A stretch of 64,000 nt of DNA from Hanleya hanleyi (Eukaryota; Mollusca; Polyplacophora; Lepidopleurida; Hanleyidae), in contig JAVTVY010020371.1 of assembly GCA_036873755.1 (NCBI GenBank), forward strand, positions 1 through 64,000, given 5' to 3'. The first letter of the stretch is position 1. Each line of letters starts with the position of its first letter. This document shows, in pieces, positions 13,742 through 55,600 of the stretch. Below the pieces are notes generated by a model. It had not been told where the DNA came from. It saw only the letters and a program-made list of their open reading frames with translations, and searched no databases. Both the position numbers and the translations under genes were made by a program.

Positions 13742-16700
13742 GTAAGTAAATGAATTCAATGATTTGATGCTCTGAGTTTATGATGCTCAACCACAGCCTA
13801 TATCCTTGATGACTGCTTAGGATTTTGCGAAAGCAAATTCTGTCTTTCAGTTAACTAGCTGTTTGATTATCTTCAGTTCCAGGTTAATGGATTGATATCA
13901 AATTTCGCGGATTCTCGATTCATGAGGCAAAGAATAAGATCTATTTGCACGACCGATATCACTCTGGCATGAACCGATATCACTCTGGCATGAACAGCAG
14001 GAAAAAGTTGGAAATGTAGATGTCTTTGCTATAACCTCCAGTCTTTGCTGGTTCAGAGCTGATTGGATGAATGTGACAATTTCAACCAAGAAACCTGTTG
14101 ACATTTTGGGCTTACCGGTTCTTGTCAGATCACTAAGTTAAGCAACGTTGAGCCCGGTCATTACTTGGATGGGTGACCGAGTGCTGTACTGGCTGGGCTG
14201 ATCAGTGTCCAGGGTAATAGGAACTCATGAATGTCTGACACATGTAGGCACCGTCATGATATGACTGAAACATACCTGCAGATGAAAATGATGTTACATC
14301 CTATACTCACTCCTGAAATGCCTAAGATGTACATGTAGAAGTACATATTGTAGCCCTGATGGAGGGCAGGATGTATTGCTGGGTGTATTGGGGGGAATCC
14401 AACATTTTATATTTTATAATGTATCCATGGTAGGGCCTTCATCTAGAAGAAGACCCTTGTCTTGTATACTGTACATGTATATATGGTACCGTACATGAAA
14501 ATGCTCTCGGAAACCATGCTGCTATTAATTCAGAATTCTGTACTATGTACATGTATGCTTTTTTTGTGCATCCTGTAAACCTGCTGGCTTTTGGACCTGT
14601 TGGACCTGTTGGACCTGCTCTCTTCAATGGGGCAATATGCCACATACATGTATCTGTACTTGTAATAAATAAGTCACAGTGCATACATGTATAGAACTGA
14701 TGGATGGATGGATCCATGGCTGGCTGGCTCTACATGGGTAGTAACTTGGACACTGATCATGCGAACATACCATGTAACTCGTCTCCCGCCCCCCCCAACA
14801 CACATGATCCCTCGTATCAGTATCGATCCAGATATTAACACCTGTATCTCATGGCACATATAATTTTGGACCAGCAAAATTGAAGAATGGTATTTCAACA
14901 TGTACTTGCACATGTAAGCTTATTGTGCATGCATGACATACAGTTCATACATGAATTTCATTTGAGGAGAGCAGTCTCTTGCTCCCCTAGAGGTTCATTT
15001 CCCTGTACTGTTTCACCATGAAGGCTCAGTCAATCTGCTTGCCTGGTGAAATTCTCAACCTACTGTACATGTACATAGAAGAGCAGTTGGATTGCCTATA
15101 GAAAGTGACTGTCATTCCTTCATGGCCGGCCTGAAATTCTTATGTATGGTTACTTGGTATTGTAATTGGTATGCTTTGGTTGCTGTTCATGGTGAGTTAA
15201 CCCAGGATATGTGATAATGGCTCTGTGTCTGTGATGAATGTTTTGTTGTACTGGTGTTATCTTCGCTCTTTCTGCCATACTCCGTTAAATTTAACTTGCA
15301 TATATCGGTTCAATGAATCCCCCAGGGCTGATATCCAGGGAAGGTGCAAAATCATTTATTCCTCCATTCTTCATCCCAAAGGTTTCGGAAGTCAAAATGT
15401 TATTTCCACATTGTCCCTCGAGTGAAAGTTATTCATGATAAGTTAACACCGAGATAGGGAGGTAGAATAGAGACAGGAATGTGATAGTGCTGGGTTATTC
15501 GAGTTCAGTGAATGAAAAAGATAATAGATGTGCACGTATATCACTGTTTATTTCATCAGTGTGGAGATAGATGTATCAAGGGACTAATACAATTTTCTCA
15601 GATCTGGAATTATTCCAGGAAAACTGGGGGAAATTTGCATAATAAGTGTGTACATGTACCAGTAAACTTTCAGGGCTGGAAATAAGGAATTGTCCACTGT
15701 AACCTGTCATAGGTTACGGTCATTCTACCTATCGTAACCTGACAGGTTATGGGACAGGTTATGATGGAAGTAAATCTCGTAACCGATGCCGTAACTCCCT
15801 CAACCCGTCGGCCATATGCTCGTTTCGACTGAACTCTTGCCTATTTCCCCAATCAATTTCATGCAAAAAGTCTGCTTGGAAATCCTATGAAACTGACGAA
15901 AGTAACAAGTATGATTATTGTGACTCCTGATTGAAGCTTCATTTCATTATCTTGATTACTTCCACTACATGTAATTTTAATGACAAAAAGCTGTAACGAA
16001 CCAGTCACCGAGATGACAATCCACAGCATTGAGACAAGCGCGTTTTTTGGTGAAGCACGATGCACACGGCACAGGTTTTTACTTCCATCTGTGAGTGCAC
16101 AAATCCATTCTCAAGTTATTTAATTTTTTTTGACAATTTATATTTATAATATCAATCAATTATAGTCTGGTACGATAAGTACTTTAGACATACAACTTTG
16201 CTGTTGTTCGATAATTAAATGCTACCAACAGCTGAAAATGAAAACTGCATGCCGGCGCATCACGGGAGACTTTACAACAACACCACCACATGCTGAATTA
16301 TCGGTGATGGTGGTAATTTTGGACAAAATTTTCACAACCCGACGAGTATTGTCTTTCGAATTATATATAATCTGGAGACATATATCCGGCATTTCATGAT
16401 TTCTCCGATCTTTAGATCGACTGACATTTTCTGATTTTGTCATTGTTGTTGCATTTTTGCCATGTTGAAGTCGTGTGTTTCAAGTTGTCAATGGTGACCG
16501 TTCGTGGTAAAATGATATGATGTAACATCCTCACGAATGTTCTCGATTTATTTCCAGCCCTATCTGTGATAACTCACTGTATTGTGAGACCTTTATGATA
16601 CTCTATAGAGCTTTGATAACTCACAGTATTGCGAGAGCTCTGATACATGTACATGTAACTCGCTGTGGTGTGAGACCTCTATGATAACTCACTGTAATGT

Positions 16701-19700
16701 GAGAGCTTTGATAACTCACACTCACAGTAGTGTGAGAGCTTTGATAACTCACACTCACAGTAGTGAGAGCTCTAATACATGTACATGTAACTCGCTGTGG
16801 TATGAGACCTCTATGATAACTCACTGTAATGTGAGAGCTTTGATAACTCACACTCACAGTAGTGTGAGAGCTTTGATAACTCACACTCACAGTAATGTGA
16901 GAGCTTTGATAACTCATTCACAGTAGTGTGAGAGCTTTGATAACTCCCACTCACAGTAGTGTGAGAGCTTTGATAACTCACATTCACTGTAGTGTGAGAG
17001 CTTTGATAACTCGCACTCACAGTAGTGTGAGAGCTTTGATAACTCACACTCACAGTAGTGTGAGAGCTTTGATAACTCACACTCACAGTAGTGTGAGAGC
17101 TTTGATAACTCACATTCACTGTAGTGTGAGAGCTTTGATAACTCACACTCACAGTAGTGTGAGAGCTTTGATAACTCACACTCACAGTAGTGTGAGAGCT
17201 TTGATAACTCACACTCACAGTAGTGTGAGAGCTTTGATAACTCACACTCACAGTAGTGTGAGAGCTTTGATAACTCACACTCACAGTAGTGGGAGAGCTT
17301 TGATAACTCATTCACAGTAGTGTGAGAGCTTTGATAACTCACACTCACAGTAGTGTGAGAGCTTTGATAACTCACACTCACAGTAATGTGAGAGCTTTGA
17401 TAACTCACAGTACTGTGAGAGCTTTGATAACTCACACTCACAGTAATGTGAGAGCTTTGATAACTCACACTCACAGTAGTGTGAGAGCTTTGATAACTCA
17501 CACTCACAGTAGTGTGAGAGCTTTGATAACTCATTCACAGTAGTGTGAGAGCTTTGATAACTCACACTCACAGTAGTGTGAGAGCCTTGATAACTCACAC
17601 TCACAGTAGTGTGAGAGCTTTGATAACTCATTCACAGTAGTGTGAGAGCTTTGATAACTCACACTCACAGTAATGTGAGAGCTTTGATAACTCACACTCA
17701 CAGTAGTGTGAGAGCTTTGATACCTCATTCACAGTAGTGTGAGAGCTTTGATAACTCACACTCAGTAGTGTGAGAGCTTTGATAACTCACACTCACAGTA
17801 GTGTGAGAGTTTTGATAACTCAGTCACACTCACAGTAGTGTGAGAGCTTTGATAACTCACACTCACAGCAGTGTGAGAGCTTTGATAACTCAGTCACACT
17901 CACAGCAGTGTGAGAGCTTTGATAACTCACTCACTGTAGTGTGGGAGCTTTGATAACTCACAGTCACACTCACAGTAGTGTGAGAGCTTTGATAACTCGC
18001 ACTCACAGTAGTGTGAGAGCTTTGATAACTCACACTCACAGCAGTGTGAGAGCTTTGATAACTCAGTCACACTCACAGTAGTGTGAGAGCTTTGATAACT
18101 CACTCACAGTAGTGTGAGAGCTTTGATAACTCATTCACAGTAATGTGAGAGCTTTGATAACTCGCACTCACAGTAGTGTGAGAGCTTTGATAACTCATTC
18201 ACAGTAGTGTGAGAGCTTTGATAACTCACTCTCACTGTAGTGTGAGAGCTTTGATAACTCACACTCACAGTAGTGTGAGAGCTTTGATAACTCACACTCA
18301 CAGTAGTGTGAGAGCTTTGATAACTCACACTCACTGTAGTGTGAGAGCTTCGATAACTCACTCACAGTAGTGTGAGAGCTTTGATAACTCACACTCACAG
18401 TAGTGTGAGCTTTGATAACTCAGTCACACTCACAGTAGTGTGAGAGCTTTGATAACTCAGTCACACTCACAGCAGTGTGAGAGCTTTGATAACTCAGTCA
18501 CACTCACAGCAGTGTGAGAGCTTTGATAACTCACACTCACAGCAGTGTGAGAGCTTTGATAACTCAGTCACACTCACAGCAGTGTGAGAGCTTTGATAAC
18601 TCACACTCACAGCAGTGTGAGAGCTTTGATAACTCACACTCACAGTAATGTGAGAGCTTTGATAACTCACACTCACAGTAATGTGAGAGCTTTGATAATT
18701 CGCACTCACAGTAATGTGAGAGCTTTGATAACTCGCACTCACAGTAGTGTGAGAGCTTTGATAACTCACACTCGCAGTAGTGTGAGAGCTTTGATAACTC
18801 AGTCACACTCACAGTAGTGTGAGAGCTTTGATAACTCACACTCACAGTAGTGTGAGAGCTTTGATAACTCACACTCACAGTAGTGCGAGAGCTTTGATAC
18901 CTTCACAGTAGTGTGAGAGCTTTGATAACTCACACTCACAGCAGTGTTAGAGCTTTGATAACTCACACTCACAGTATTGTGAGAGCTTTGATAACTCACA
19001 CTCACAGTAGTGTGAGAGCTTTGATAACTCACACTCACAGTAGTGTGAGAGCTTTAATAACTCACACTCACAGCAGTGTGAGAGCTTTGATAACTCGCAC
19101 TCACAGTAGTGTGAGAGCTCTAATACATGTACATGTAACTCGCTGTGGTGTGAGACCTCTATGAAAACTCACTGTAGTGTGAGAGCTTTGATAACTCACA
19201 CTTACAGTAGTGTGAGAGCTTTGATAACTCACAGTAATGTGAGAGCTTTGATATCTCACACTCACAGTAGTGTGAGAGCTTTGATAACTCACACTCACAG
19301 TAGTGTGAGCTTTGATAACTCACACTACAGTAATGTGAGAGCTTTGATAACTCACTCACTGTAGTGTGAGAGCTTTGATAACTCATTCACAGTAGTGTGA
19401 GCTTTGATAACTCACACTACAGTAATGTGAGAGCTTTGATAACTCATTCACAATAGTGTGAGAGCTTTGATAACTCACACTCAACGTAGTGCGAGAGCTT
19501 TGATAACTCAATCTCACAGTAATGTGAGAGCTTTGATAACTCGCACTCACAGTAGTGTGAGAGCTTTGATAACTCAGTCACACTCACAGTAGTGTGAGAG
19601 CTTTGATAACTCAGTCACACTCACAGCAGTGTGAGAGCTTTGATAACTCACACTCACAGCAGTGTGAGAGCTTTGATAACTCACACTCACAGCAGTGTGA

Positions 19701-22700
19701 GAGCTTTGATAACTCAGTCACACTCACAGCAGTGTGAGAGCTTTGATAACTCACACTCACAGCAGTGTGAGAGCTTTGATAACTCACACTCACAGTAATG
19801 TAAGAGCTTTGATAACTCGCACTCACAGTAATGTGAGAGCTTTGATAACTCGCACTCACAGTAGTGTGAGAGCTTTGATAACTCACACTCACAGTAGTGT
19901 GAGAGCTTTGATAACTCAGTCACACTCACAGTAGTGTGAGAGCTTTGATAACTCACACTCACAGTAGTGTGAGAGCTTTGATAACTCACACTCACAGTAG
20001 TGTGAGAGCTTTGATACCTTCACAGTACTGTGAGAGCTTTGATAACTCACACTCACAGCAGTGTTAGAGCTTTGATAACTCACACTCACAGTAGTGTGAG
20101 AGCTTTGATAACTCACACTCACAGTAGTGTGAGAGCTTTGATAACTCACACTCACAGTAGTGTGAGAGCTTTAATAACTCACACTCACAGCAGTGTGAGA
20201 GCTTTGATAACTCACACTCACAGTAGTGAGAGCTCTAATATATGTACATGTAACTCGCTGTGGTGTGAGACCTCTATGATAACTCACTCTAGTGTGAGAG
20301 CTTTGATAACTCACACTCACAGTAGTGTGAGAGCTTTGATAACTCACAGTAATGTGAGAGCTTTGATAACTCACACTCACAGTAGTGTGAGAGCTTTGAT
20401 AACTCACACTACAGTAATGTGAGAGCTTTGATAGCTCACACTCACTGTAGTGTGAGAGCTTTGATACATGTAACTCATTCACAGTAGTGTGAGCTTTGAT
20501 ACATGTAACTCACACTACAGTAATGTGAGAGCTTTGATAACTCATTCACAGTAGTGTGAGAGCTTTGATAACTCATTCACAGTAGTGAGAGCTTTGATAA
20601 CTCACACTACAGTAATGTGAGAGCTTTGATAACTCACACTCACTGTAGTGTGAGAGCTTTGATACATGTAACTCATTCACAGTAGTGTGAGCTTTGATAC
20701 ATGTAACTCACACTACAGTAATGTGAGAGCTTTGATAACTCATTCACAGTAGTGTGAGAGCTTTGATAACTCATTCACAGTAGTGAGAGCTTTGATAACT
20801 CACACTCACAGTAATGTGAGAGCTTTGATAACTCACACTCACAGTAATGTGAGAGCTTTGATAACTCACACTCACAGTAGTGTGAGAGCTTTGATAACTC
20901 ACACTCACAGTAATGTGAGAGCTTTGATAACTCACACTCACAGTAATGTGTGAGCTTTGATAACTCACACTCACAGTAATGTGAGAGCTTTGATAACTCA
21001 CACTCACTGTAGTGTGAGAGCTTTGATAACTCACACTCACAGTAGTGTGAAAGCTTTGATAACTCACACTCACAGTAATGTGAGAGCTTTGATAACTCAC
21101 ACTCACTGTAGTGCGAGAGCTTTGATAACTCATTCACAGTAGTGTGAGCTTTGATAACTCACACTACAGTAATGTGAGAGCTTTGATAACTCATTCACAG
21201 TAGTGTGAGAGCTTTGATAACTCATTCACAGTAGTGTGAGAGCTTTGATAACTCACACTCACCGTAGTGTGAGAGCTTTGATAACTCACACTCACAGTAA
21301 TGTGAGAGCTTTGATAACTCGCACTCACAGTAGTGTGAGAGCTGTGATAACTCACACTCACAGTAGTGTGAGAGCTTTGATAACTCACAGTCACACTCAC
21401 AGTAGTGTGAGAGCTTTGATAACTCACACTCAAAGTAATGCGAGAACTTTGATTACTCACACTCACAGTAGTGTGAGAGCTTTGATAACTCACACTCACA
21501 GTAGTGTGAGAGCTTTGATAAATCATTCACAGTAGTGTGAGAGCTTTGATAACTCACACTCACCGTAGTGTGAGAGCTTTGATAACTCACACTCACAGTA
21601 ATGTGAGAGCTTTGATAACTCGCACTCACAGTAGTGTGAGAGCTGTGATAACTCACACTCACAGTAGTGTGAGAGCTTTGATAACTCACAGTCACACTCA
21701 CAGTAGTGTGAGAGCTTTGATAACTCACACTCAAAGCAATGCGAGAACTTTGATTACTCACACTCACAGTAGTGTGAGAGCTTTGATAACTCACACTCAC
21801 AGTAATGTGAGACCTTTGATAACTCACACTCACAGTAATGTGTGAGCTTTGATAACTCCCACTCACAGTAATGTGAGAGCTTTGATAACTCACACTCACA
21901 GTAGTGTGAGAGCTTTGATAACTCAGTCACACTCACAGTAGTGTGAGAGCTTTGATAACTCACACTCACAGTAGTGTGAGAGCTTTGATAACTCACACTC
22001 ACAGCAGTGTGAGAGCTTTGATAACTCACACTCACAGTAATGTGAGAGCTTTGATAACTCACACTCACAGTAATGTGAGAGCTTTGATAACTCACACTCA
22101 CAGTAGTGTGAGAGCGAGCTTTGATAACTCACACTCACAGTAGTGTGAGAGCTTTGATAACTCACACTCACAGTAGTGTGAGAGCTTTGATAACTCGCAC
22201 TCACAGCAGTGTTAGAGCTTTGATAACTCACACTCACAGTAGTGTGAGAGCTTTGATAACTCACACTACAGTAATGTGAGAGCTTTGATAGCTCACACTC
22301 ACTGTAGTGTGAGAGCTTTGATACATGTAACTCATTCACAGTAGTGTGAGCTTTGATACATGTAACTCACACTACAGTAATGTGAGAGCTTTGATAACTC
22401 ATTCACAGTAGTGTGAGAGCTTTGATAACTCATTCACAGTAGTGAGAGCTTTGATAACTCACACTACAGTAATGTGAGAGCTTTGATAACTCACACTCAC
22501 TGTAGTGTGAGAGCTTTGATACATGTAACTCATTCACAGTAGTGTGAGCTTTGATACATGTAACTCACACTACAGTAATGTGAGAGCTTTGATAACTCAT
22601 TCACAGTAGTGTGAGAGCTTTGATAACTCATTCACAGTAGTGAGAGCTTTGATAACTCACACTCACAGTAATGTGAGAGCTTTGATAACTCACACTCACA

Positions 22701-25700
22701 GTAATGTGAGAGCTTTGATAACTCACACTCACAGTAGTGTGAGAGCTTTGATAACTCACACTCACAGTAATGTGAGAGCTTTGATAACTCACACTCACAG
22801 TAATGTGTGAGCTTTGATAACTCACACTCACAGTAATGTGAGGGCTTTGATACCTCACACTCACAGTAGTGTGAGAGCTTTGATAACTCACACTCACAGT
22901 AGTGTGAAAGCTTTGATAACTCACACTCACAGTAATGTGAGAGCTTTGATAACTCACACTCACTGTAGTGTGAGAGCTTTGATAACTCATTCACAGTAGT
23001 GTGAGCTTTGATAACTCACACTACAGTAATGTGAGAGCTTTGATAACTCATTCACAGTAGTGTGAGAGCTTTGATAACTCATTCACAGTAGTGTGAGCTT
23101 TGATAACTCACACTCACCGTAGTGTGAGAGCTTTGATAACTCACACTCACAGTAATGTGAGAGCTTTGATAACTCGCACTCACAGTAGTGTGAGAGCTGT
23201 GATAACTCACACTCACAGTAGTGTGAGAGCTTTGATAACTCACAGTCACACTCACAGTAGTGTGAGAGCTTTGATAACTCACACTCAAAGCAATGCGAGA
23301 ACTTTGATTACTCACACTCACAGTAGTGTGAGAGCTTTGATAACTCACACTCACAGTAATGTGAGACCTTTGATAACTCACACTCACAGTAATGTGTGAG
23401 CTTTGATAACTCCCACTCACAGTAATGTGAGAGCTTTGATAACTCACACTCACAGTAGTGTGAGAGCTTTGATAACTCAGTCACACTCACAGTAGTGTGA
23501 GAGCTTTGATAACTCACACTCACAGTAGTGTGAGAGCTTTGATAACTCACACTCACAGCAGTGTGAGAGCTTTGATAACTCACACTCACAGTAATGTGAG
23601 AGCTTTGATAACTCACACTCACAGTAATGTGAGAGCTTTGATAACTCACACTCACAGTAGTGTGAGAGCGAGCTTTGATAACTCACACTCACAGTAGTGT
23701 GAGAGCTTTGATAACTCTCACTCACAGTAGTGTGAGAGCTTTGATAACTCACACTAGTGTGAGAGCTTTGATAACTCGCACTCACAGCAGTGTTAGAGCT
23801 TTGATAACTCACACTCACTGTAGTGTGAGAGCTTTGATAACTCACACTCACAGTAGTGTGAGAGCTTTGATAACTCACACTCACAGCAGTGTTAGAGCTT
23901 TGGTACCTCACACTCACAGTAATGTGAGAACTTTGATAACTCACACACTCACAGTAGTGTGAGAGCTTTGATAACTCACACTCACAGTAGTGTGAGAGCT
24001 TTGATAACTCACACTCACAGCAGTGTGAGAGCTTTGATAACTCGCACTCACAGTAGTGTGAGAGCTCTAATACATGTACATGTAACTCGCTGTGGTGTGA
24101 GACCCCTATAACTCACTGTAGTGTGAGAGCTTTGATAACTCACACTCACAGTAGTGTGAGAGCTTTGATAACTCACACTCACAGTAGTGTGAGAGCTCTG
24201 ATAACTCACACTCACAGTAGTGTGAGAGCTTTGATAACTCACACTCACAGTAGTGTGAGAGCTTTAATAACTCACACTCACAGTAGTGTGAGAGCTCTGA
24301 TAACTCACTCACAGTAGTGTGAGAGCTTTGATAACTCACACTCACAGTAGTGTGAGAGCTTTGATAACTCACACTCATAGTAGTGTGAGAGCTTTGATAA
24401 CTCACTCACAGTAGTGTGAGAGCTTTGATAACTCACACTCACAGTAGTGTGAGAGCTTTGATAACTCACACTCACAGTAGTGTGAGAGCTTTGATAACTC
24501 ACACTCACAGTAGTGTGAGAGCTTTAATAACTCACACTCACAGTAGTGTGAGAGCTTTGATAACTCACTCACAGTAGTGTGAGAGCTCTGATAACTCACA
24601 CTCACAGTAGTGTGAGAGCTTTGATAACTCACACTCACAGTAGTGTGAGAGCTTTGATAACTCACACTCACAGTAGTGTGAGAGTTTGATAACTCACACT
24701 CACAGTAGTGTGAGAGCTTTGATAACTCATTCACAGTAATGTGAGAGCTTTGATAACTCACACTCACAGTAGTGTGAGAGCTTTGATAACTCACACTCAC
24801 AGTAGTGTGAGAGCTTTGATAACTCACACTCACAGTAATGTGAGAGCTTTGATAACTCACACTCACTGTAGTGTGAGAGCTTTGATAACTCATTCACAGT
24901 AGTGTGAGCTTTGATAACTCACACTACAGTAATGTGAGAGCTTTGATAACTCATTCACAGTAGTGCGAGAGCTTTGATAACTCATTCACAGTAGTGTGAG
25001 AGCTTTGATAACTCACACTCACTGTAGTGTGAGAGCTTTGATAACTCACACTCACAGTAATGTGAGAGCTTTGATAACTCACACTCACAGTAGTGTGGGA
25101 GCTTTGATAACTCACACTCACTGTAGTGTGAGAGCTTTGATAACTCACACTCACAGTAGTGTGAGAGCTTTGATAACTCACACTCACTGTAGTGTGGGAG
25201 CTTTGATAACTCAGTCACACTCACAGTAGTTTGAGAGCTTTGATAACTCACACTCACAGTAGTGTGAGAGCTTTGATAACTCACACTCACAGCAGTGTGA
25301 GAGCTGTGATAACTCACACTCCCAGTAATGTGAGAGCTTTGATAACTCACACTCACAGTAATGTGAGAGCTTTGATAACTCTCACTCACAGTAGTGTGAG
25401 AGCGAGATTTGATAACTCACACTCACAGTAATGTGAGAGCTTTGATAACTCATTCACAGTAGTGTGAGAGCTTTGATAACTCATTCACAGTAGTGTGAGA
25501 GCTTTGATAACTCAAACTCACCGTAGTGTGAGAGCTTTGATAACTCACACTCACAGTAATGTGAGAGCTTTGATAACTCGCACTCACAGTAGTGTGAGAG
25601 CTGTGATAACTCACACTCACAGTAGTGTGAGAGCTTTGATAACTCAGTCACACTCACAGTAGTGTGAGAGCTTTGATAACTCACACTCAAAGTAATGCGA

Positions 25701-28700
25701 GAACTTTGATTACTCACACTCACAGTAGTGTGAGAGCTTTGATAACTCACACTCACAGTAATGTGAGACCTTTGATAACTCACACTCACAGTAATGTGTG
25801 AGCTTTGATAACTCACACTCACAGTAATGTGAGAGCTTTGATAACTCACACTCACAGTAGTGTGAGAGCTTTGATAACTCAGTCACACTCACAGTAGTGT
25901 GAGAGCTTTGATAACTCACACTCACAGTAGTGTGAGAGCTTTGATAACTCACACTCACAGTAGTGTGAGAGCTTTGGTAACTCACACTCACAGTAGTGTG
26001 AGAGCTTTGATAACTCACACTCACAGTAGTGTGAGAGTTTGATAACTCACTCACAGTAGTGTGAGAGCTTTGATAACTCACTCACAGTAGTGTGAGAGCT
26101 TTGATTCATCACACTCACAGTAGTGTGAGAGCTTTGATAACTCACACTCACAGTAGTGTGAGAGCTTTGATAACTCACACTCACAGTAGTGTGAGCGTTT
26201 GATAACTCACACTCACAGTAGTGTGAGAGCTTTGATAACTCACACTCACAGTAGTGTGAGAGGTTTGATAACTCACACTCACAGTAGTGTGAGAGCTTTG
26301 ATAACTCACACTCACAGTAGTGTGAGAGCTTTGATAACTCACACTCACAGTAGTGTGAGAGCTTTGATAACTCAGTCACACTCACAGTAGTGTGAGAGCT
26401 TTGATAACTCACACTCACAGTAGTGTGAGAGCTTTGATAACTCACACTCACAGTAGTGTGAGAGCTTTGGTAACTCACACTCACAGTAGTGTGAGAGCTT
26501 TGATAACTCACACTCACAGTAGTGAGAGTTTGATAACTCACACTCACAGTAGTGTGAGAGCTTTGATAACTCACACTCACAGTAGTGTGAGAGCTTTGAT
26601 TCACCACACTCACAGTAGTGTGAGAGCTTTGATAACTCACACTCAAGTAGTGTGAGAGCTTTGATAACTCACACTCACAGTAGTGTGAGAGTTTGATAAC
26701 TCACACTCACAGTAGTGTGAGAGCTTTGATAACTCACACTCACAGTAGTGTGAGAGCTTTGATAACTCACACTCACAGTAGTGTGAGAGCTTTGATAACT
26801 CACACTCACAGTAGTGTGAGAGCTTTGATAACTCACACTCACAGTAGTGTGAGAGCTTTGATAACTCACATTCACAGTAGTGTGAGAGCTTTGATAACTC
26901 ACATTCACAGTAGTGTGAGAGCTTTGATAACTCACACTCACAGTAGTGTGAGAGCTTTGATAACTCACACTCACAGTAGTGTGAGAGCTCTGACACATGT
27001 AACTCGCTGTAGTGTTCAGATGATCTCACTCTTGTGTGAGAGCTCTGTGTTAATTCATAGTGTGGGAGCTCTGTGTTAATTCATAGTGTGAGAGCTCTGT
27101 GTTAATTCATAGTGTGAGAGCTCTGTTAATTCATAGTGTGAGAGCTCTGTGTTAATTCATAGTGTGAGAGCCCTGTGTTAATTCGTAGTGTGAGAGCCCT
27201 GTGTTAATTGAGAGCTCTGTGTTAATTCATAGTGTGAGAGCTCTGTGTTAATTCATAGTGTGAGAGCTCTGTGTTAATTCATAGTGTGAGAGCTCTGTGT
27301 TAATTCACTGTAGTGTGAGAGCCCTGCTCCCAATACCTCATGCTTTGAGGATATTTTTACATGCACGTAAACTAATGTAGTTTACATCACTTACACTCTG
27401 TGCCCCTTCTGACACTGTAGATATGGGTGAAGTAATTTGACAGCCATCAGTGCCCCTTCCTTTGCTATTATCTTGTCCCCTCACAGGCTAGCATGGCCAG
27501 TCTCTCCTTTCTGTTACCCTTCATGATGTGTATAATAAGGCATTACTTTGGCAATGTCGGGTAAAATCTGTGTTTGTGCAGACATGTTTACACTGTTCGA
27601 CTTTCTCCCACCTTGACTGTATAAACTGTACATTGTAATTTCTGATTTTAAGCTGAGTGGTTACAGGTATATACAATCTACAGTCATGAAATTGTAGTTC
27701 ATGTACATGTATATATATATGTACATGTATAGCCAGCCTGTGTATCACTGTGGACATGTATGTACATGGTGTATGTGCTGAGACAAATCTGTTTCGTAGA
27801 CGTAAAATTGTGTGCACAGCTTACATCAGCACATCACCGGCATAACTGCTTGCTTTGAGCAGGTCTTGAAACAGAGCAGTTTGGAAGAAACAAAAGTTGC
27901 ATGTTTGTGACATGAAATTGATATTATATTTTCTTTGTGCATTAGACTGTTTAATGATATACATGTACATTTTGTATCTCTATATTGTGTACTATCCACA
28001 GGACGGCGAAGAGAAGGCCAATCTGAGCACAGTAAGGAAGAACCGAGGATGTACTGATATCGTCTTCTTGTTCATCTTTGTTGCCTTCTGGGTCGGCATG
28101 GTATGTATTCATGGCGCTCCTCAAATGGCACAGAAAATCAATAATTTAACATACTGAATGCACATGTGAGCAATTCCAGCGTGACTCGGGTTACATTCAG
28201 AGCCCCAAGAGCAAATTCAGTTTGTTCAGATTTTAATATAAATGACATGTAATCACCCACATCCAGCAGTTATTTACTTCAGGGTAAGACCTAACCAATG
28301 ACACAACCAGTTGATTATCTAAGTTCAAATTGTAACTTTCATGTACAAAAACAAGAGCGTGACTCAGGTTACGAAAAAAAAGACATGACCCCCAGACCAC
28401 CAGTGCTTCGGATTTGAAAAATCCAGAAGAGCTAAAAATCGCTCTTCTAATTTTGTCAAGAAGAGCGATCACTCCTCTAAAAAAAACCTTCTAAAAACTG
28501 TGAGAAGAGCTATTTACGAGAATGGGGATGTAACTAGTAACTCCTATTTTATGATTCTTCTGGCAAGAAAAGTATTAGTATTATTTTCAAACTTCTTAAC
28601 ATTATCAGGGCATGCATTTACCATAAAACTTTGTTAGACCACCGGGCTGGTAGATTTCATTATACAAAGCTAAAATTCGTGAATTATAACAAGCCAGTTG

Positions 28701-43600: not shown

Positions 43601-46600
43601 TAAATGCCAGTTCTGGAGATGATTTGCCCTGTACATTGTATATTGAATCTACGGTCCTCATTATCAATTAGCATGATTGGTGTAGTTTATATCTTGTTTC
43701 GAAGACAAATGTACATGAATGACAGAGAAGAGTTCAGCAATCCAACTCTTAATATCCAAGGTGCAGTGGAACTACAAATCCCAAATTAGGATATTATGCA
43801 CAAATGTGTATAGTCATACTTGAAGGTGGAAAGAATGACAATATAACTGATCAAAATTCTGCACTCAAATATTTGTCATCAATGCATATGTATAGTAGTT
43901 TATACAGCTGTAAAGTTGCAGTCATTTTCTTTGCATTATGTGTAATGAGATGCACATCAAACGGGACTCCGGTTACAATTTTCAAAGTACCACCATTTTT
44001 TTTATTCAATATTTATGAGCAGCTTTATCAGAAATGACTAAGGCATAAGTAAGACAAAGAAATTATGAAACATTTCTCTAATGCTGTTCAGGGATTTTTA
44101 TCAGTTTAGAAATAAATCATTTTTCGTGACTCCGGTTACATCATATAACATGATAGCATACTACTGTGTATGCTACATAAACTAAAGGTAATTTTAGCTA
44201 CCTGCATTTTCTGGTTAAAGTACATGATTAGGCCAATGTATTGGAGACAAAAGATAAAGTAGGAGTAGCCAAGATGACAAATCTACCCTATGATTAACAG
44301 AGAATTTTATGCTATTTTGCACGATATTTCATCAAAAAAATAGAAGTCTATTAGTGGATTAAAACCCAAACAAAATATTATTTCCATGAACTTAGGAATA
44401 TAAACTATGTTATAGGAAAAGAATTAGTAACACCATTAAGTTTATTTTTTACTGATCATGTCCATGTTTACACGGAATTGCCCATGTGTGACACATAAAT
44501 TTGATAAAATCGATAATTTATACTGAAAGTGCATGGATGACATTTATCCATCCAACGGAGCCAATGGATGTTGCACTTACACTGTTACAGTTTAGGAGGT
44601 TATACAAACTTTGAAAACAGGGGCAACTGTTACGTCTTTTCTTAGTTTTCTTCACCGAATTCGCGTACAAATGTCGACGCAAGTCGACTCGCCTGCCATG
44701 CTTGATGTTGTTGTTTCGGAATGGAATGTTGAAGGGCATTTCTCCGTGACCTACAATTTGATTGGTCTGAATTATCGACGTCATCCTTCTACATTTACCC
44801 TGTGTCTATGAGCACTTTACATCTTGGCTGCTTGTCAGGCAGTTGAAAGTATTCATAGGCCGTCGGGTGAAGCATGTCGGTCACACGGAATGAGGTGTAC
44901 ATTGAAGGGAAACCTCGTGTTCAGTCATCAAAATGGCGGGCCTGTAAAACTTTGACTTTACGTGAGAGATAAACCAATAGTAAAAGGCGAAGGTCGCTTG
45001 AGAAATTCATTTGTGACTGGTTCAGCAAACCTCAGAAATAGTTCAATGAAGCAAAACAACATCAGTTTGTCTGACAATAACTTTTGTCCTGCAACTGTCC
45101 TGCTGATGATTTTGAATATTTCTACCCCTGAATTCAGGTTATTTTGGTAACAGAACATTTTTGCCGAGGCAGATTTAATATGTAATCTGTAGGCCTACCC
45201 TCAGTTCATCCTCTTTGTAATTAATGGTTTCCCTGTCATAATGTTTACAAGCCCCTATCAAATTCTTGATGTATTTTTCTCTGTGGCCATTTCAGATCTA
45301 CATAGCAGTATTCTCTATCAGTAACGGTGATGCTATGAGACTGGTCTATGGCTATGATAGTTATGGTATTTCTATATCTCTATTTCAGATCTACATAGCA
45401 GTATTCTCTATCAGTAATGGTGATGCTATGAGACTGGTCTATGGCTATGATAGTTATGGTATTTCTATATCTCTATTTCAGATCTACATAGCAGTATCCT
45501 CTATCAGTAACGGTGATGCTATGAGACTGGTCTATGGCTATGATAGTTATGGTATTTCTATATCTCTATTTCAGATCTACATAGCAGTATTCTCTATCAG
45601 TAACGGTGATGCTATGAGACTGGTCTATGGCTATGATAGTTATGGTATTTCTATATCTCTATTTCAGATCTACATAGCAGTATTCTCTATCAGTAATGGT
45701 GATGCTATGAGACTGGTCTATGGCTATGATAGTTATGGTATTTCTATATCTCTATTTCAGATCTACATAGCAGTATTCTCTATCAGTAATGGTGATGCTA
45801 TGAGACTGGTCTATGGCTATGATAGTTATGGTATTTCTATATCTCTATTTCAGATCTACATAGCAGTATCCTCTATCAGTAATGGTGATGCTAGGAGACT
45901 GTTCTATGGCTATGATAGTTACATGTATGGTATTTCTATATCTCTATTTCAGATCTACATAGCAGTATTCTCTATCAGTAATGGTGATGCTATGAGACTG
46001 GTCTATGGCTATGATAGCTATGGTAATACGTGTGATGAGCTCAACAATCCCATCCCCAATGTCACCTTATCGGGCCAGAATATGAAAGGCAGACCGTGAG
46101 TGGAATCATTTTTCATTCAGCTTGATAACATTTCACAATGTTGAATCTATGATTATAATACATGTTAATGAAGAGTTTTATGGATCTGATCATGTGGTGG
46201 TGTACAACAGTTTTCATTTCCAATCAAATATCTTTTTTTTCCATCTCGTCGCTCTTCTTTTAGTTCTGTTGAATTTCCTTACGGCAAACAAAGATAACCA
46301 ATTCTGTCTTTTCCCATGGGATTATTGATGAGGAAATATGAAAGCAAAGTCTATTTCCTGAGTTATCTGTTTTCACAGAAACCTAAAGTAAATCCATGTG
46401 TATTAAAGATCTTCTTAAGATTGAAGTGTAATAATTTCGTCTTGGATCCTGTGAATCATCCAGCCTTTGGTCAGTGTCTTCCCTTCAGATTTCACTATTA
46501 ACTCCACATGAAGTGTTTATACAATTGATTGACACTGGCATTTTTATCACATCCTCATTTCACACTAGAACTGGACAATATCAGTCTGAGGTGGGAGCTA

Positions 46601-49600
46601 GGTCCATTGAGCAGGCTGGTCTCCTCTGGATAGGAAAATTGATCAGGCTGTTTATTGTATGAACTTGATTGTGCTGGTTTGTGTGAATCCAGTGATAGAC
46701 TCAATACTCAATAACATTGATAACTGGGCAGGAAGTAGACTATTCACTGGCTCTGTTTTTATACCAAATATTGTGGAGCACAGTCAGAGCACCAACAGAA
46801 TGTCTGAGGGCAGCTGGTGATCAGTATTTGGTAACTGTGACCCGAGGCTGCAGTTATTTTGCTGATTAAACCCCATGTGTACATGTAGAACACATCTCAG
46901 AAGATGAACATTTCTCTAAAATATTATTACTGTACAATAGGCCATCTTGGACTGTTCCACACAACATTGACCGTTGAACACTGTTTTATCTATCTATATC
47001 TACTCACACTAAGATAAAACAACTCTGTATTCACCGTTTATTTATAAACTCTGTATTCACCGTTTATTTATACATGTATGACATGTACATGAATGATAGA
47101 CTTTAATTGTTCAAACAATTGCAACTGATTTACAACCACTGATTTCAGTTGTAGATCTGTGAACACACTTTTCTTTATCATTGTTAATGGAATTGTCATT
47201 TACATTTTCCTTACAATCATGTGTAAGGTTTTCAATTATAAGGAAATTTGGAAATGTTTCATATTATTAATATGATGTAGAAAGGTAAAAAATATTCTTA
47301 CTTGTTCCAGTTCATTTTGTAACATGAATCAGCTGTTTTGCTCAGGCATGTCAGGTGTAAATACTTACAAAGATTCAAAACTGTGACTACTGACATGACT
47401 GACCCATATATATTTGTTCATATAACCCATCCCTGTCATTTGGCTGCAGCTAATTGTAGATTATTAGAAAGTGTAAACTTGTTTTATACAAACTTGTCAA
47501 GTGTTTAGATGTCATTCACAGATGCATCATTAATGCTGTGTAGATGGTATTCTGTGTTGTACTGATGGTTTTACTTCCACCTTTGGTACTTTAATATGGA
47601 CAAATTCAGTCTACAATAAAGTTATTATGATGATATGAAGCCACCATTTGGGAATACTATGTCAATACTGGCACGAGCTACATGTGTTAAGGTGTAAATA
47701 TATACCTATAGTATTTACACCACCATCACCGAGGATATTACTGGTGTAGTATGGTATTCAGCAAGAACTAACAGCTGTCTGGATAGATCTGTTAGTGATT
47801 TCCTTTCGCCTCCATACACGTGGACTTGTGGCCCAAAGCAAAACATAGCCTTTACACAATGTACCTCTATCCATATGGTCTATACAATAGAGATGAAATT
47901 TGGCCCGAGTTTCTTCCCTGGCAAACTGGTGAAATGTCATTTTAAACAGCCTCCATTTGTCATTGATGATTTAGTCTGGGCTGTTGCCTGTGGTTTCCAA
48001 TGAAGTTTGGGATCCCCTGAGTGCTCCCCAATATGATCAGAAAATAGTGTTCATTGGATTAAACAGCCTGGCCAGTTATCATGCTCATTTAGCCCCAGTT
48101 AGAATGTTAGATGTTGTCTGCATGCCCACTCTTGCAATCTATAATCCACTGGTACTGTACTCCTGATCATGTGGCATCCAGCATGCCCAGGTTAGACAGG
48201 TCTTTGAAGTACATTGTACCTGTCTCATTTCACCAAATGACTGCTCAGAAGGTTTGGGAGAAAATGATCCGTGAAATGTACTCGTAATTTGCAATTCATG
48301 AAATTTGCCCTCTGTATTGACAAATTCAGTCTGGCTGAAGTTTATGGACATCATCATGAATGAACTGATTGTCTTGTCACCAAATTGATGGTAAATTTAA
48401 TTTCCCTATGCACAGAGAAATGTTCTGACAGTTTAATAAAAGACTATCATATAGAGATGTACAGCACACCCCCGTTTATTATACAATGTTCATCTCTCCT
48501 TGTAACTATTCAACATTGTCATGGTGCCATAATCTCATTGTTGGATGCTCCTAGCAATTGTTCTTATTTGGCCTGTTCATTACATAGAGCTGCAGATGAC
48601 CTGACATGTTCTATTGATTTGTGCAGACTTCAGATAGCTGCACCTGTTCTTTGTGCACGCATCACATATATAAAATATATATTTAAATCTACATGTAATA
48701 TTTTAACAGGTATGTCTTCTTCATGAATTCAAAGAACCCATTCCACAGTAAAGCTATATGTGTGGCTGTCTGCCCTGATAAAGAATTGATGTACAAGGAG
48801 AAAGTGGAGGAGTTCTCTCGGAGGTCAGGCTCGGGACTATGTGACTATAACATAGCTGTGGAGGATTACAATGATAAATGGAAGGAAGGAGATTATGGGC
48901 CATGTCCTAATCTGCCAGTCCCTGAAAGGTATGGGGGTCTGACTCCTTAGAGGAATATCACTGGTCTCCCAGGTCCATACACTGGTCCTCCATTATAACA
49001 TAGCTGTGAAGGATTACAATGATAAATGGAAGGAAGGAGACTATAAAAATGGGCCATGACCTAATATGCCAGTCCCTGAAAGGTATGGGGGTGTGACTCC
49101 TTAATAAGGAATATCACTAGTCTCCAAGATCCACATGCTGGTCCTCCATTATAATGTAGCTCTGATGGATTACAATGATGAATGGAAGGAAGAAAACTAC
49201 AGACCAGCCAGTCTCTGCAAGATATGGGGTCCGTCTCATTAATAAAGATTATCTCTCAGTCAGCAGAAGTAAAAGATCCTGGCTAGTCATAGATGTATAT
49301 AGTCACTCAAGTTTATACACTAATCTTACCAGACTCACAGTATAACAGGATTGTAATGATGAATGAAAGGATCCAGACTATATGGCCCTTCTTCGCCCAT
49401 TCCCTGCAAGGTTTGGGGGAGCTAGCTGACTCCTTAATAAGGTCACGACCAGTTACTCCGGTCAAAAAACTGATCCCCCATAACTGTGGAGGAATACAAT
49501 GATCTAACTGGGAATTGAACTACCAGCAGTGTACTAAACTCCCAGTCCCTGCAAGATACATGTATGGGGTCTGACTTCTTAAAGATCCTGACTTCTCACT

Positions 49601-52600: not shown

Positions 52601-55600
52601 CTTCCTGTATCTTTTCGATAGAATTGCCCCGCACATTCGACACAACTCATACTTAGTGGAGGCCGACATCTTGGGAAATGAACTACTACGTAACGCGCAT
52701 TCTGATTGGATGCAGCACGCCGTCTCTGCATCCAATCATAAATGAGGATTAAGTTCCAACTTTACTAGAGAAGTATGCCAAGGCAATGTACAGAGCAACG
52801 TGATGTACGTCGACTTGGCTAGAGAAGATGCACCAGCAGTGGTATATACAATAAATATCACCAACAATGGTATATACAATAAATATCACCAACAATGGTA
52901 TATACGATAAATATCAGCAACAATGGTATATACAATAAATATCACCAACAATGGTATATACAATAAATATCACCAACAATGGTATATACAATAAATATCA
53001 CCGGCAATGGCATATACAATAAATATCACCAACAATGGTATATACAATAAATATCACCAACAATGGTATATACAATAAATATCACCAGTAGTGGTATATA
53101 CAATAAATATCACCAACAATGGTATATACGATAAATATCACCAACAATGGTATATACAATAAATATCACCAACAATGGTATATACGATAAATATCACCAA
53201 CAATGGTATATACAATAAATATCACCAACAATGGTATATACAATAAATATCACCAACAATGGTATATACAATAAATATCACCAGGAGTGGTATATACGAT
53301 CAATATCACCAGCAATGGTATATACAATACATATCACCAGTAATGGTGTGTACATGTAAGACTAACCATTTCATCTCTGTGTCCTTATTATGAGAATGTG
53401 AACACTGAATGATTGGTGAGGAAGATCTTTGTGATCCTACTACTAGTCATTTTGGCCCATTTGTCATGTAACAGTTCAGGCCCGTATGCAAGGGGGGGGG
53501 GGGGGTTCGGTGGGGTTGGTCGCGCGCCCCTTCCCCCCCCCCCACGCTGCCCTTGAATCGGACAGAGTTCCGCCTCAACAGTCCATGAATAAAAAATATA
53601 TCATGTGAGGCTAGTGTGCAGGCCACCATGACCGAAACACGCAAAGCGACCCAACGGTTCCATGAGGCCGGCCGATGTCTCTCCAGTAGTTCTCGTCTCT
53701 TGGTGCATACAGCTTGGTACTATTCATTCTGAGGATGATCTGGCCATTTTCATCTTGAGAAAGCATGTTGCTCTTGCTGTCGCCCTAGCTGATTTCTCTT
53801 AGAGTATTCCCTGCCTGTTAGTCCATACTGTATAATTGTACTATTTCTTCTGTAGGTGATCTTACTTCTGGTCAGTTCCATCATGAGAAAGCGTGTCGCT
53901 CTCAGTGTCCCCCTGTTCTATGATGCAGGCCGACATCTCTCCAGTATTCCATTCGTTAGTCCATACTATATTGTAGTATTTGTCCTGTAGGTGATATTAC
54001 TGCTGGTCAGTTTCATCATGAGAAAGCGTGTCACTCTCACTGTCGCCCTGTTCCATGATGCAGGCCGACTTCTCTCCAGTATTCCGTTTGTTAGTTCATA
54101 CTATATTATTGTAATATTTGTTCTGTAGGTGATCTTACTGCTGGTCATCTTCATCATGAGAAAGCGTGTCGCTCTCACTGTCGCCCTGTTCCATGAGGCA
54201 GGACGTTGTCTCTCCAGTATTCCCTGTCTGCTCTTCCAACCACTGTGGACATTCTTTGTTCTCTTTCTGTTCCTCATCTACTGGACAGTGGTACTGGCTT
54301 ACTTGTCCACCGCAGGTTCGTGTACTTTCTTATACCTCTGTTTTATCACCCCTGACCCAAATTGTGTTAACCATGGTAACTATTATATGTACATGTATAC
54401 TGTGCTGATAAACTCATCAAAATTAGCCGTGATATACTGAGACTATAATTAGAAGATGATTGCAAGTGTTTCTGAGTTTATTTCAATACCCAAAGGCAGA
54501 GAGATTCCCGGCAAATTGTACAGTTTATGTTTTTACTCTGGCATGCAGCTAAGTATTTGTTAGCTGAATATACCAAACATAAATTATCAATTTAAAATGA
54601 TTTAAAAATTTTAAAATGTTGAAAGATTTATGGTATAAATTAGAAGTAGTAGAATCCTGGCTATTTTTATATATGATTGAATTTCTCCCTTGCAGAATAC
54701 CCCAGCCTGAACACTGAATATCTGGTAAAGTATGAGGAACATAACCTGGTCTCGTATTTCTGGTGGTATCATGTGATAGGTCTGATCTGGACGAGTGAAT
54801 TCATCATCGCCTGTCAACAGTTTGTCGTCTCTGGTACTGTAGCCACATGGTACTTCTCCAGGTCAGTGAACACTTGTCTATCATGTCCATGCTATGATGG
54901 GTGATCGTAGCTCTGTACACAATCTGTCAATTCAAACCAATCAGTTAGTACAAGAAGTGATATTTTTAACTAGACAGTCAAGAAGTTCACCTTACCATAG
55001 CTCAAGTTACCAACTGTTAGTTATAGGACATATAGGAAGGAGCACTTGTCACAGGAATACTATTTCAATAGGTGATTTATTTGGCCTAATATCATATGTA
55101 ATATAGATGACCATGTAACCATTTTTGGAAATTCAGTATGCAGATTGATGTGCGAGTGACAATTTGGTTTCTTTCATGTCAAATTTTTGTGAGTTTCTTT
55201 TCTTGTGGCAAATTCTTTCACCCTGCCAGGTATAACAGCAGGGTCAACATCCCTGCGTGCCTTCCCCCCCCCCCCCCAACCGTTTTGCCAGTCACCCACC
55301 CCAATTCCCAAAGTAGAGCCCCTGTATGTCTTGAGTTAGCTTTGCCACCCAACATCGCATACTGCATCTCCTAAGCTAAACCTTGCCCGACCCCTCCTAT
55401 GTTCAGCCCCCCGAGCATTTTAATTGTATGAGCATTCCCCGTAAGAAAATGTATACATTAAGAGGGTTTCTGGAAGGTTTGGCAAGTACTAAAAATAGAA
55501 GGGTTCTACCAAGGGTCCATTTCTAGACCAGTGGTCTAATTCTAGCAATGAAGGTTCCAGTGTTGACTGCACCCTGTAGCCTGATATGGTCTGAAAGCTT

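Follow-up and report, generated by a model that had tools for sequence, protein, structure and literature searches.

A tandem array of eight in-frame splice acceptors at exon 3 of slc44a1 in the chiton Hanleya hanleyi

By the title of a study cited in PMC2572611, a minisatellite multiplies a splice site in the interferon-induced transcript of IFI6. Human genes in segmental duplications contain internal tandem repeats at exon-intron boundaries, with a mean unit of 30 bp present four times (PMC2812944). In the potato RdRp gene, a tandem duplication affected an intron-exon structure with its branch site, polypyrimidine tract, and 3′ splice site (PMC4974935), and introns that cross tandem AGGT duplicates of 24 bp are described in fission yeast (Zhu and Niu 2013, cited in PMC4974935). 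Tandem duplication and intron gain have also been considered together in Drosophila (PMC2891723). Judged by titles and the starts of abstracts, we found no report of a minisatellite that multiplies acceptors.

Here we describe an array in slc44a1 of Hanleya hanleyi, in a window of 64,000 nucleotides (the whole stretch of DNA analysed, part of an 82,202-base contig), in which each unit spans an intron-exon border with 70 bp of exon and 23 bp of intron. As the human repeats are described, both they and this array cross an exon-intron border, and such repeats can change splicing. With the potato gene, in the account cited above, the array shares a duplicated piece made of intron and the following exon with its 3′ splice signals, and with the fission yeast case, as cited, it shares multiple tandem copies carrying splice signals within a gene.

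The repeated head of exon 3 and its acceptors

The assignment of the gene to slc44a1/CTL1 held in all comparisons: the product matched Pfam Choline_transpo (PF04515, E 1.3e-72) and the human CTL1 structure 7wwb (E 1.3e-139; 9qu3 also matched), and its best relative was CTL1 of the chiton Liolophura sinensis, with 76% identity over 100% of the 524-residue query. With the last acceptor taken at both exon 3 and exon 8, exons 2 to 15 (n = 14, numbered as in the original prediction) join to 600 stop-free codons; this join leaves out exon 1, which was not located, and the last coding exon. A large extracellular domain bridges M1 and M2 in human CTL1 (PMC13160678), and the segment repeated in H. hanleyi occurs once in the human structures (7wwb, 9qu3). 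The features around the array are as follows.

28002..28100, plus strand: exon 2, coding for the cytosolic N-terminus and the first portion of TM1; donor GGCATG/GTATGT (tblastn with Liolophura CTL1; splice borders)
45271..45295, plus strand: intron end before copy 1, a T-rich tract and AG, unlike the intron part of the repeat unit (sequence)
45296..45388, plus strand: copy 1, 70-bp exon-3 head and 23-bp intron end, the acceptor for copy 2 (TRF, motif search)
45389..45481, plus strand: copy 2 of the 93-bp unit (TRF, motif search)
45482..45574, plus strand: copy 3, with Phe to Ser at residue 6 (motif search, column comparison)
45575..45667, plus strand: copy 4 (TRF, motif search)
45668..45760, plus strand: copy 5 (TRF, motif search)
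45761..45853, plus strand: copy 6 (TRF, motif search)
45854..45952, plus strand: copy 7, 99 bp, with the changes F6S, M14R, and V17F and with 6 bp inserted into the conserved GYDSYG to give DSYMYG (motif search, column comparison, alignment with relatives)
45953..46095, plus strand: full exon 3, donor AGACC/GTGAGT (motif search, tblastn with Liolophura CTL1, splice borders)

The original prediction of seven near-identical 93-bp units (the last of 99 bp) ahead of the full exon 3 was confirmed at 45296-46095. TRF reported a period of 93 with 7.9 copies at 45289-46025 (96% matches), and the score of 1364 shows that the array did not arise by chance. The head copies (ATCTACATAGCAGTA...) start at 45296, 45389, 45482, 45575, 45668, 45761, 45854, and 45953, that is, with six spacings of 93 bp and one of 99 bp, the seventh unit being 6 bp longer. 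Because these spacings are multiples of three, the eight acceptors share one frame. All units lie in a single open frame (45242-46099), as had been claimed, and the sequences spliced in silico from acceptors 1, 6, 7, and 8 that we checked were open. Also supported are the steps of 31 or 33 residues by which products would differ according to the acceptor chosen. Most extra units would add 31 residues, which run from the end of TM1 through the linker to the ectodomain and include a hydrophobic spacer, in agreement with the position proposed for the repeated segment, from the end of TM1 into the ectodomain.

Two further details of the original prediction needed correcting. Copies 2-8 all follow the same 23-bp intron end, GTATTTCTATATCTCTATTTCAG, whereas copy 1 follows another sequence, GTATTTTTCTCTGTGGCCATTTCAG; this indicates that the intron part of the unit had already diverged from the present flank when the array grew or that the flank changed later. 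Some microhomology exists at the joint, although it is weaker than claimed, since exon TATGGTAATACG and intron end GATGTATTTTT share only GTA in the present-day flanks. The exon part varies at seven columns, namely point sites 17, 30, 41, 49, and 66 (two silent, three residue-changing) and columns 69 and 70, which vary solely through the 6-bp insertion of copy 7; the intron part before copies 2-8 shows zero variation. Across the eight copies, columns 17 and 30 occur in every one of the four possible base combinations, a pattern that exchange between copies would leave and that recurrent mutation could also produce. The likeness of the copies supports recent expansion or homogenisation. That the array contains no stop or frame-breaking indel is unremarkable given five point sites and one 6-bp insertion, and also fits weak constraint. 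With a chance of 1/3 for a period divisible by three and about 0.7 for an open 23-bp spacer, an open array is expected in about 1/4 of cases, and the openness of this array is in itself weak evidence.

No second locus with the exon-3 array was found in a search of the 2.48-Gb genome (52,793 contigs). Just upstream of the array, at about 44619-45136, lies a dispersed repeat, whose longest pieces were 86-90% alike in 39 other contigs (40 of 504 candidates scored).

We compared the acceptors by pyrimidine content, AG-free stretch, and a simple YNYTRAY motif, an ad hoc score and not a trained splice model. All eight have a polypyrimidine tract, an AG-free stretch, and a branch-point-like motif. 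The acceptors of copies 2-8 have 14 pyrimidines in 17 positions, AG-free stretches of 26-32 bases, and a branch-point-like CTATGAT 31-37 bases upstream that is contributed by the preceding exon-head copy. Acceptor 1 has 13/17 pyrimidines, an AG-free stretch of 42, and a full YNYTRAY match (TCTTGAT) 26 bases before the exon, at the left end of 45271-45295; its branch-point score was 9/9, compared with 8 for the other array acceptors, and locally it is at least equal in quality to acceptor 8. Twelve other exons of slc44a1 have 8 to 13 pyrimidines of 17. These scores indicate that none of the acceptors looks dead and that local motifs fail to single out the last one.

At the protein level, we compared the 26-residue head with 119 CTL1 relatives (the 120 best of 1269 found, minus P0054, in which the region is absent; many are isoforms or near relatives of each other). 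None of the 119 has an inserted residue within the head, and G11, G19, D21, and G24 are invariant in them. F6S, carried by copies 3 and 7, occurs in none of these relatives; copy 7 further has V17F (2/119), M14R, which falls on a variable site, and a DSYG interrupted by two extra residues. The peptide of copy 8 and exon 3 is identical to that of L. sinensis at 48/48 aligned residues, in a record that is a protein and silent on the intron, and also to P0126, the genomic read-through of another, probably chiton, source, which has no head copy within 27 residues before its acceptor. Set beside the 76% of the whole query, this identity with L. sinensis marks exon 3 as an unusually conserved piece of the linker between TM1 and the ectodomain. 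Given point sites in the exon part, three of them amino-acid changing, and an intron part that is invariant before copies 2-8, nothing in these small numbers points to constraint on copies 1-7 at the protein level. The added segments reach Kyte-Doolittle 19-residue maxima of 1.25-1.58, compared with 2.77 for TM1.

No transcript-derived protein of H. hanleyi was recognised with the 524-residue query (candidates of about 288-917 residues; 7994 scored, 1269 found, best 120 listed), among the five found with the 285-residue array frame (7992 scored), or with a 165-residue query from exons 2-5 (eight candidates, two found). Another record, P0121 (185 residues, from a 1430-bp contig), looks like read-through of the same exon in another animal's CTL1. 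In it, a full head follows an acceptor-like FQ. Another head, slightly shortened, lies 93 residues upstream and likewise follows FQ, with a partial head in between; the copies are spaced by microsatellite-like sequence, and the intron parts look unlike those of the H. hanleyi array. These head copies suggest that duplication of the exon-3 head with its acceptor probably occurred at least twice.

Splice-site arrays at other exons of slc44a1 and in the genome

Two further exons of slc44a1 carry copies of their own splice sites.

48710..48928, plus strand: exon 4 (tblastn with Liolophura CTL1; splice borders)
48994..49584, plus strand: copies of the exon-4 tail and donor (blastn, TRF, motif search, sequence)
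53657..54128, plus strand: copies of the exon-8 head and acceptor (blastn, TRF)
54129..54315, plus strand: full exon 8 (tblastn with Liolophura CTL1; splice borders)

The nearest copy of the exon-4 tail is 87% alike and keeps an intact donor, AAAG/GTATGG (at 49076), and three further stretches are 71-72% alike; beyond the own donor of exon 4, the frame closes at a TAG within 22 bases. The exon-8 head has two recent copies, at 53856 and 53991 (83/95 and 86/95 bases alike), plus older decayed ones. In both recent copies the frame is closed by a TAG where the next acceptor lies, so that at exon 8 only the last, exon-proximal acceptor would allow a full protein. This is the window's best argument for the last acceptor at exon 3, and it assumes that the gene makes a full protein. 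The exon-4 and exon-8 arrays are older than that of exon 3. Tandem arrays are abundant in the window, which also contains a 10.3-kb array of a 33-bp minisatellite upstream of exon 2 (16687-26993, 312.8 copies by TRF).

Within the window, arrays were not enriched at exon edges, with 3 of 28 edges in arrays as compared with circular shifts in which the mean was 2.6 edges for periods of at least 45 (563/1276 shifts reached 3), 2.0 for periods of at least 90 (407/1276), and 8.1 for all periods (1085/1276); borders of six late exons were approximate in this comparison, and the observed count had 3 bp of slack where the shifts had none.

We searched the genome for the myosin-head family, and read 71 of the 72 matches listed with their flanks. 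Donor-bearing arrays stood at the exon end of four of the 71.

C51691 (L031 1660-2145): 64-bp unit, 7.3 copies, six GAGGTA donors including the exon's own; unit not divisible by three
C27226 (L040 1570-1925): 107-bp unit, 3.3 copies; unit not divisible by three
C17254:1-676, minus strand: 39-bp unit, 13 AGGTA[AG]GT donors including the exon's own
C20160:76897-77525 (L041), minus strand: myosin motor exon, 33-bp unit, 14 AAG/GTATGT donors including the exon's own

The donors on C27226 comprise the exon's own, one intact copy, one in which GT has become AT, and one diverged copy, and the array on C17254 meets an in-frame stop after about two units. The array on C20160 is open in the frame of its exon and encodes the 11-residue GMWSYIYTLFQ 14 times with small variants, which makes it, as read from the DNA, a donor-side mirror image of the slc44a1 exon-3 array in a myosin motor domain. 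Since repeated 11-residue inserts would fall in the motor domain, the exon-proximal donor presumably wins there.

Splice-site arrays were thus found at 7/85 sampled exons (3/14 in slc44a1 and 4/71 myosin matches), or 7/91 with six kinesin exons included, a rough rate given that the sample is one gene family plus the window gene. Two of those counted in the window gene and myosin are of the acceptor type and five of the donor type. Two of the seven are open in frame, as compared with the roughly 1/4 expected by chance, so that frame-preserving openness needs no selection. The kinesin exons (the first six of 124 matches, with 150-bp flanks) showed no splice-site array, the short flanks making this a weak control.

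Edges of the myosin matches, which are Pfam edges and not proven exon borders and may in part come from contigs that are haplotype pairs, fell in arrays of period at least 20 in 6 of 142 cases (71 of the 72 matches), less often than introns do, with their 10.9% coverage. Four of these six arrays have donors in their units, C43530 has none, and C36023 is weak, decayed, and acceptor-side, and was left uncounted. Array coverage was 0-4% within 400 bp upstream of the matches and 7-12% downstream. A bias against acceptor-side arrays near myosin exons is possible, though not significant in simple tests: splice-site arrays near these exons were 0 acceptor-side versus 4 donor-side (Fisher p = 0.12), and arrays within 300 bp lay upstream of 5 and downstream of 8 of 70 matches (p = 0.56).

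Choice among the eight acceptors

We favour, with a probability of about 0.66, a splice-acceptor-bearing minisatellite in slc44a1 that is a by-product of tandem-repeat growth in a repeat-rich genome, with the main product made from the eighth, exon-proximal acceptor. Such an array could have started when 70 bp of exon head were duplicated in tandem together with 23-25 bp of intron end, across the border of intron 2 and exon 3; unequal exchange or slippage could account both for its growth to eight copies and for their likeness. A polypyrimidine tract and AG come with every copy, and for copies 2-8 the preceding exon head contributes the branch-point-like CTATGAT. The eighth acceptor most likely gives the main mRNA because its exon has a normal 143 nt, while the upstream acceptors lead to exons of 242-800 nt. 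If upstream acceptors were used leakily, longer in-frame products would result in which the end of TM1 and the linker to the ectodomain recur; these are probably minor and unselected. The mechanism of growth, the acceptor used, and the absence of a selected function are what we infer from these comparisons. Acceptor 1, with the best branch-point match by motif and the first place in the transcript, would speak against this reading, given that all eight copies would be included by a spliceosome that settles on the first good AG it meets.

The original prediction had offered a length-variable transporter ectodomain or a silent expansion through the last acceptor. In the former, several acceptors would be used to make CTL1 with 0 to 7 extra repeats of 31 or 33 residues between TM1 and the ectodomain, length being set by acceptor choice and by copy number per animal. 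Eight complete-looking acceptors, all with open products, and added segments that are marginally hydrophobic and form no strong membrane spans would suit it, yet the absence of insertions from all 119 relatives, the drift of copies 3 and 7 from the conserved motif, and the variation of the exon part at five point sites beside an invariant intron part before copies 2-8 all argue against it, as do the non-open splice-site arrays elsewhere in slc44a1 and in the genome, where the open frame of 2/7 is near chance. We therefore regard the variable ectodomain as unlikely; the mostly silent expansion fits better, its use of the last acceptor being the part that we infer. An extension of the variable ectodomain to many genes of this genome, in which frequent splice-site-bearing minisatellites would provide ladders of the acceptor or donor type such as the 14 in-frame donors of the myosin motor exon, is a bolder claim and a little less likely again. 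Similarly doubtful is a single long exon, a coding minisatellite in which acceptor 1 is constitutive and the protein always carries every repeat. Acceptor 1 does retain an intron end outside the repeat together with the best branch-point match, and the frame is open, but the protein would carry 219 residues with seven extra hydrophobic stretches between TM1 and an ectodomain start that is ungapped in 119/119 relatives, and copies 1-7 lack signs of constraint. It would also need an internal exon of 800 nt following a 17-kb intron, which is unusual.

There is only a small chance that the copy number is wrong and the animal has one or few copies. The likely source assembly combines Illumina super-reads with Nanopore reads (PMC9366239), and a hybrid assembly can miscount copies of a 0.75-kb array; however, five point sites and a 6-bp insertion tell the copies apart, the array is found at one place only, its adjoining left flank (about 45137-45288) matched nothing else (40 of 504 candidates scored), and it stands among other arrays of different ages in slc44a1. 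Very improbable, finally, is the start of intron gain, in which the unit joint TATG/GTATTT would serve as a donor and the head copies would become small exons between new introns, in the manner reported for the potato RdRp gene. Each joint has GT after ATG, like the exon 2 donor ATG/GTATGT, and each unit has an acceptor, but judged by eye the joint lacks the G at +5 and no usable donor is present. The 23 bp from a joint to the next acceptor are too short for an intron, and splicing a joint to a later copy adds a 70-nt exon and breaks the frame.

Recurrence of the arrays and comparison with known systems

Near-identical complete splice sites offer a natural test of spliceosome choice. As local motifs are almost equal in copies 2-8, what is left to decide the outcome is order, distance, and exon size. 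Should the exon-proximal site prevail for acceptors, at slc44a1 exon 3, as well as for donors, at the myosin exons, this would argue for exon definition in this animal; if several acceptors are used, tandem-repeat growth would be a direct source of in-frame variation in protein length. The recurrence at 7/85 exons suggests a large natural library of splice-site arrays in one genome, and it is a more interesting point than the exon-3 array itself.

Compared with the systems described, the new element is the eight-acceptor, in-frame version, within a genome where such arrays recur. The fission yeast case, as cited, has exonic units that became introns, while the unit here spans a border. In the account of the potato gene, one extra copy and an activated cryptic donor gave a new intron, whereas the exon-3 array has eight copies and no good donor. 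The human internal tandem repeats, as described, vary among paralogs and are backed by transcripts; the exon-3 array is one locus in one assembly, with a longer unit and eight acceptors. IFI6 concerns donors in a unit that is reportedly short, and the exon-3 array concerns acceptors in a 93-bp unit with a whole acceptor region. A 5′ splice site within the unit, as in IFI6, is absent from the exon-3 unit and present, by sequence, in other arrays of this genome. Use in RNA is claimed for IFI6 by the title of that study, while the exon-3 array is known from genomic sequence.
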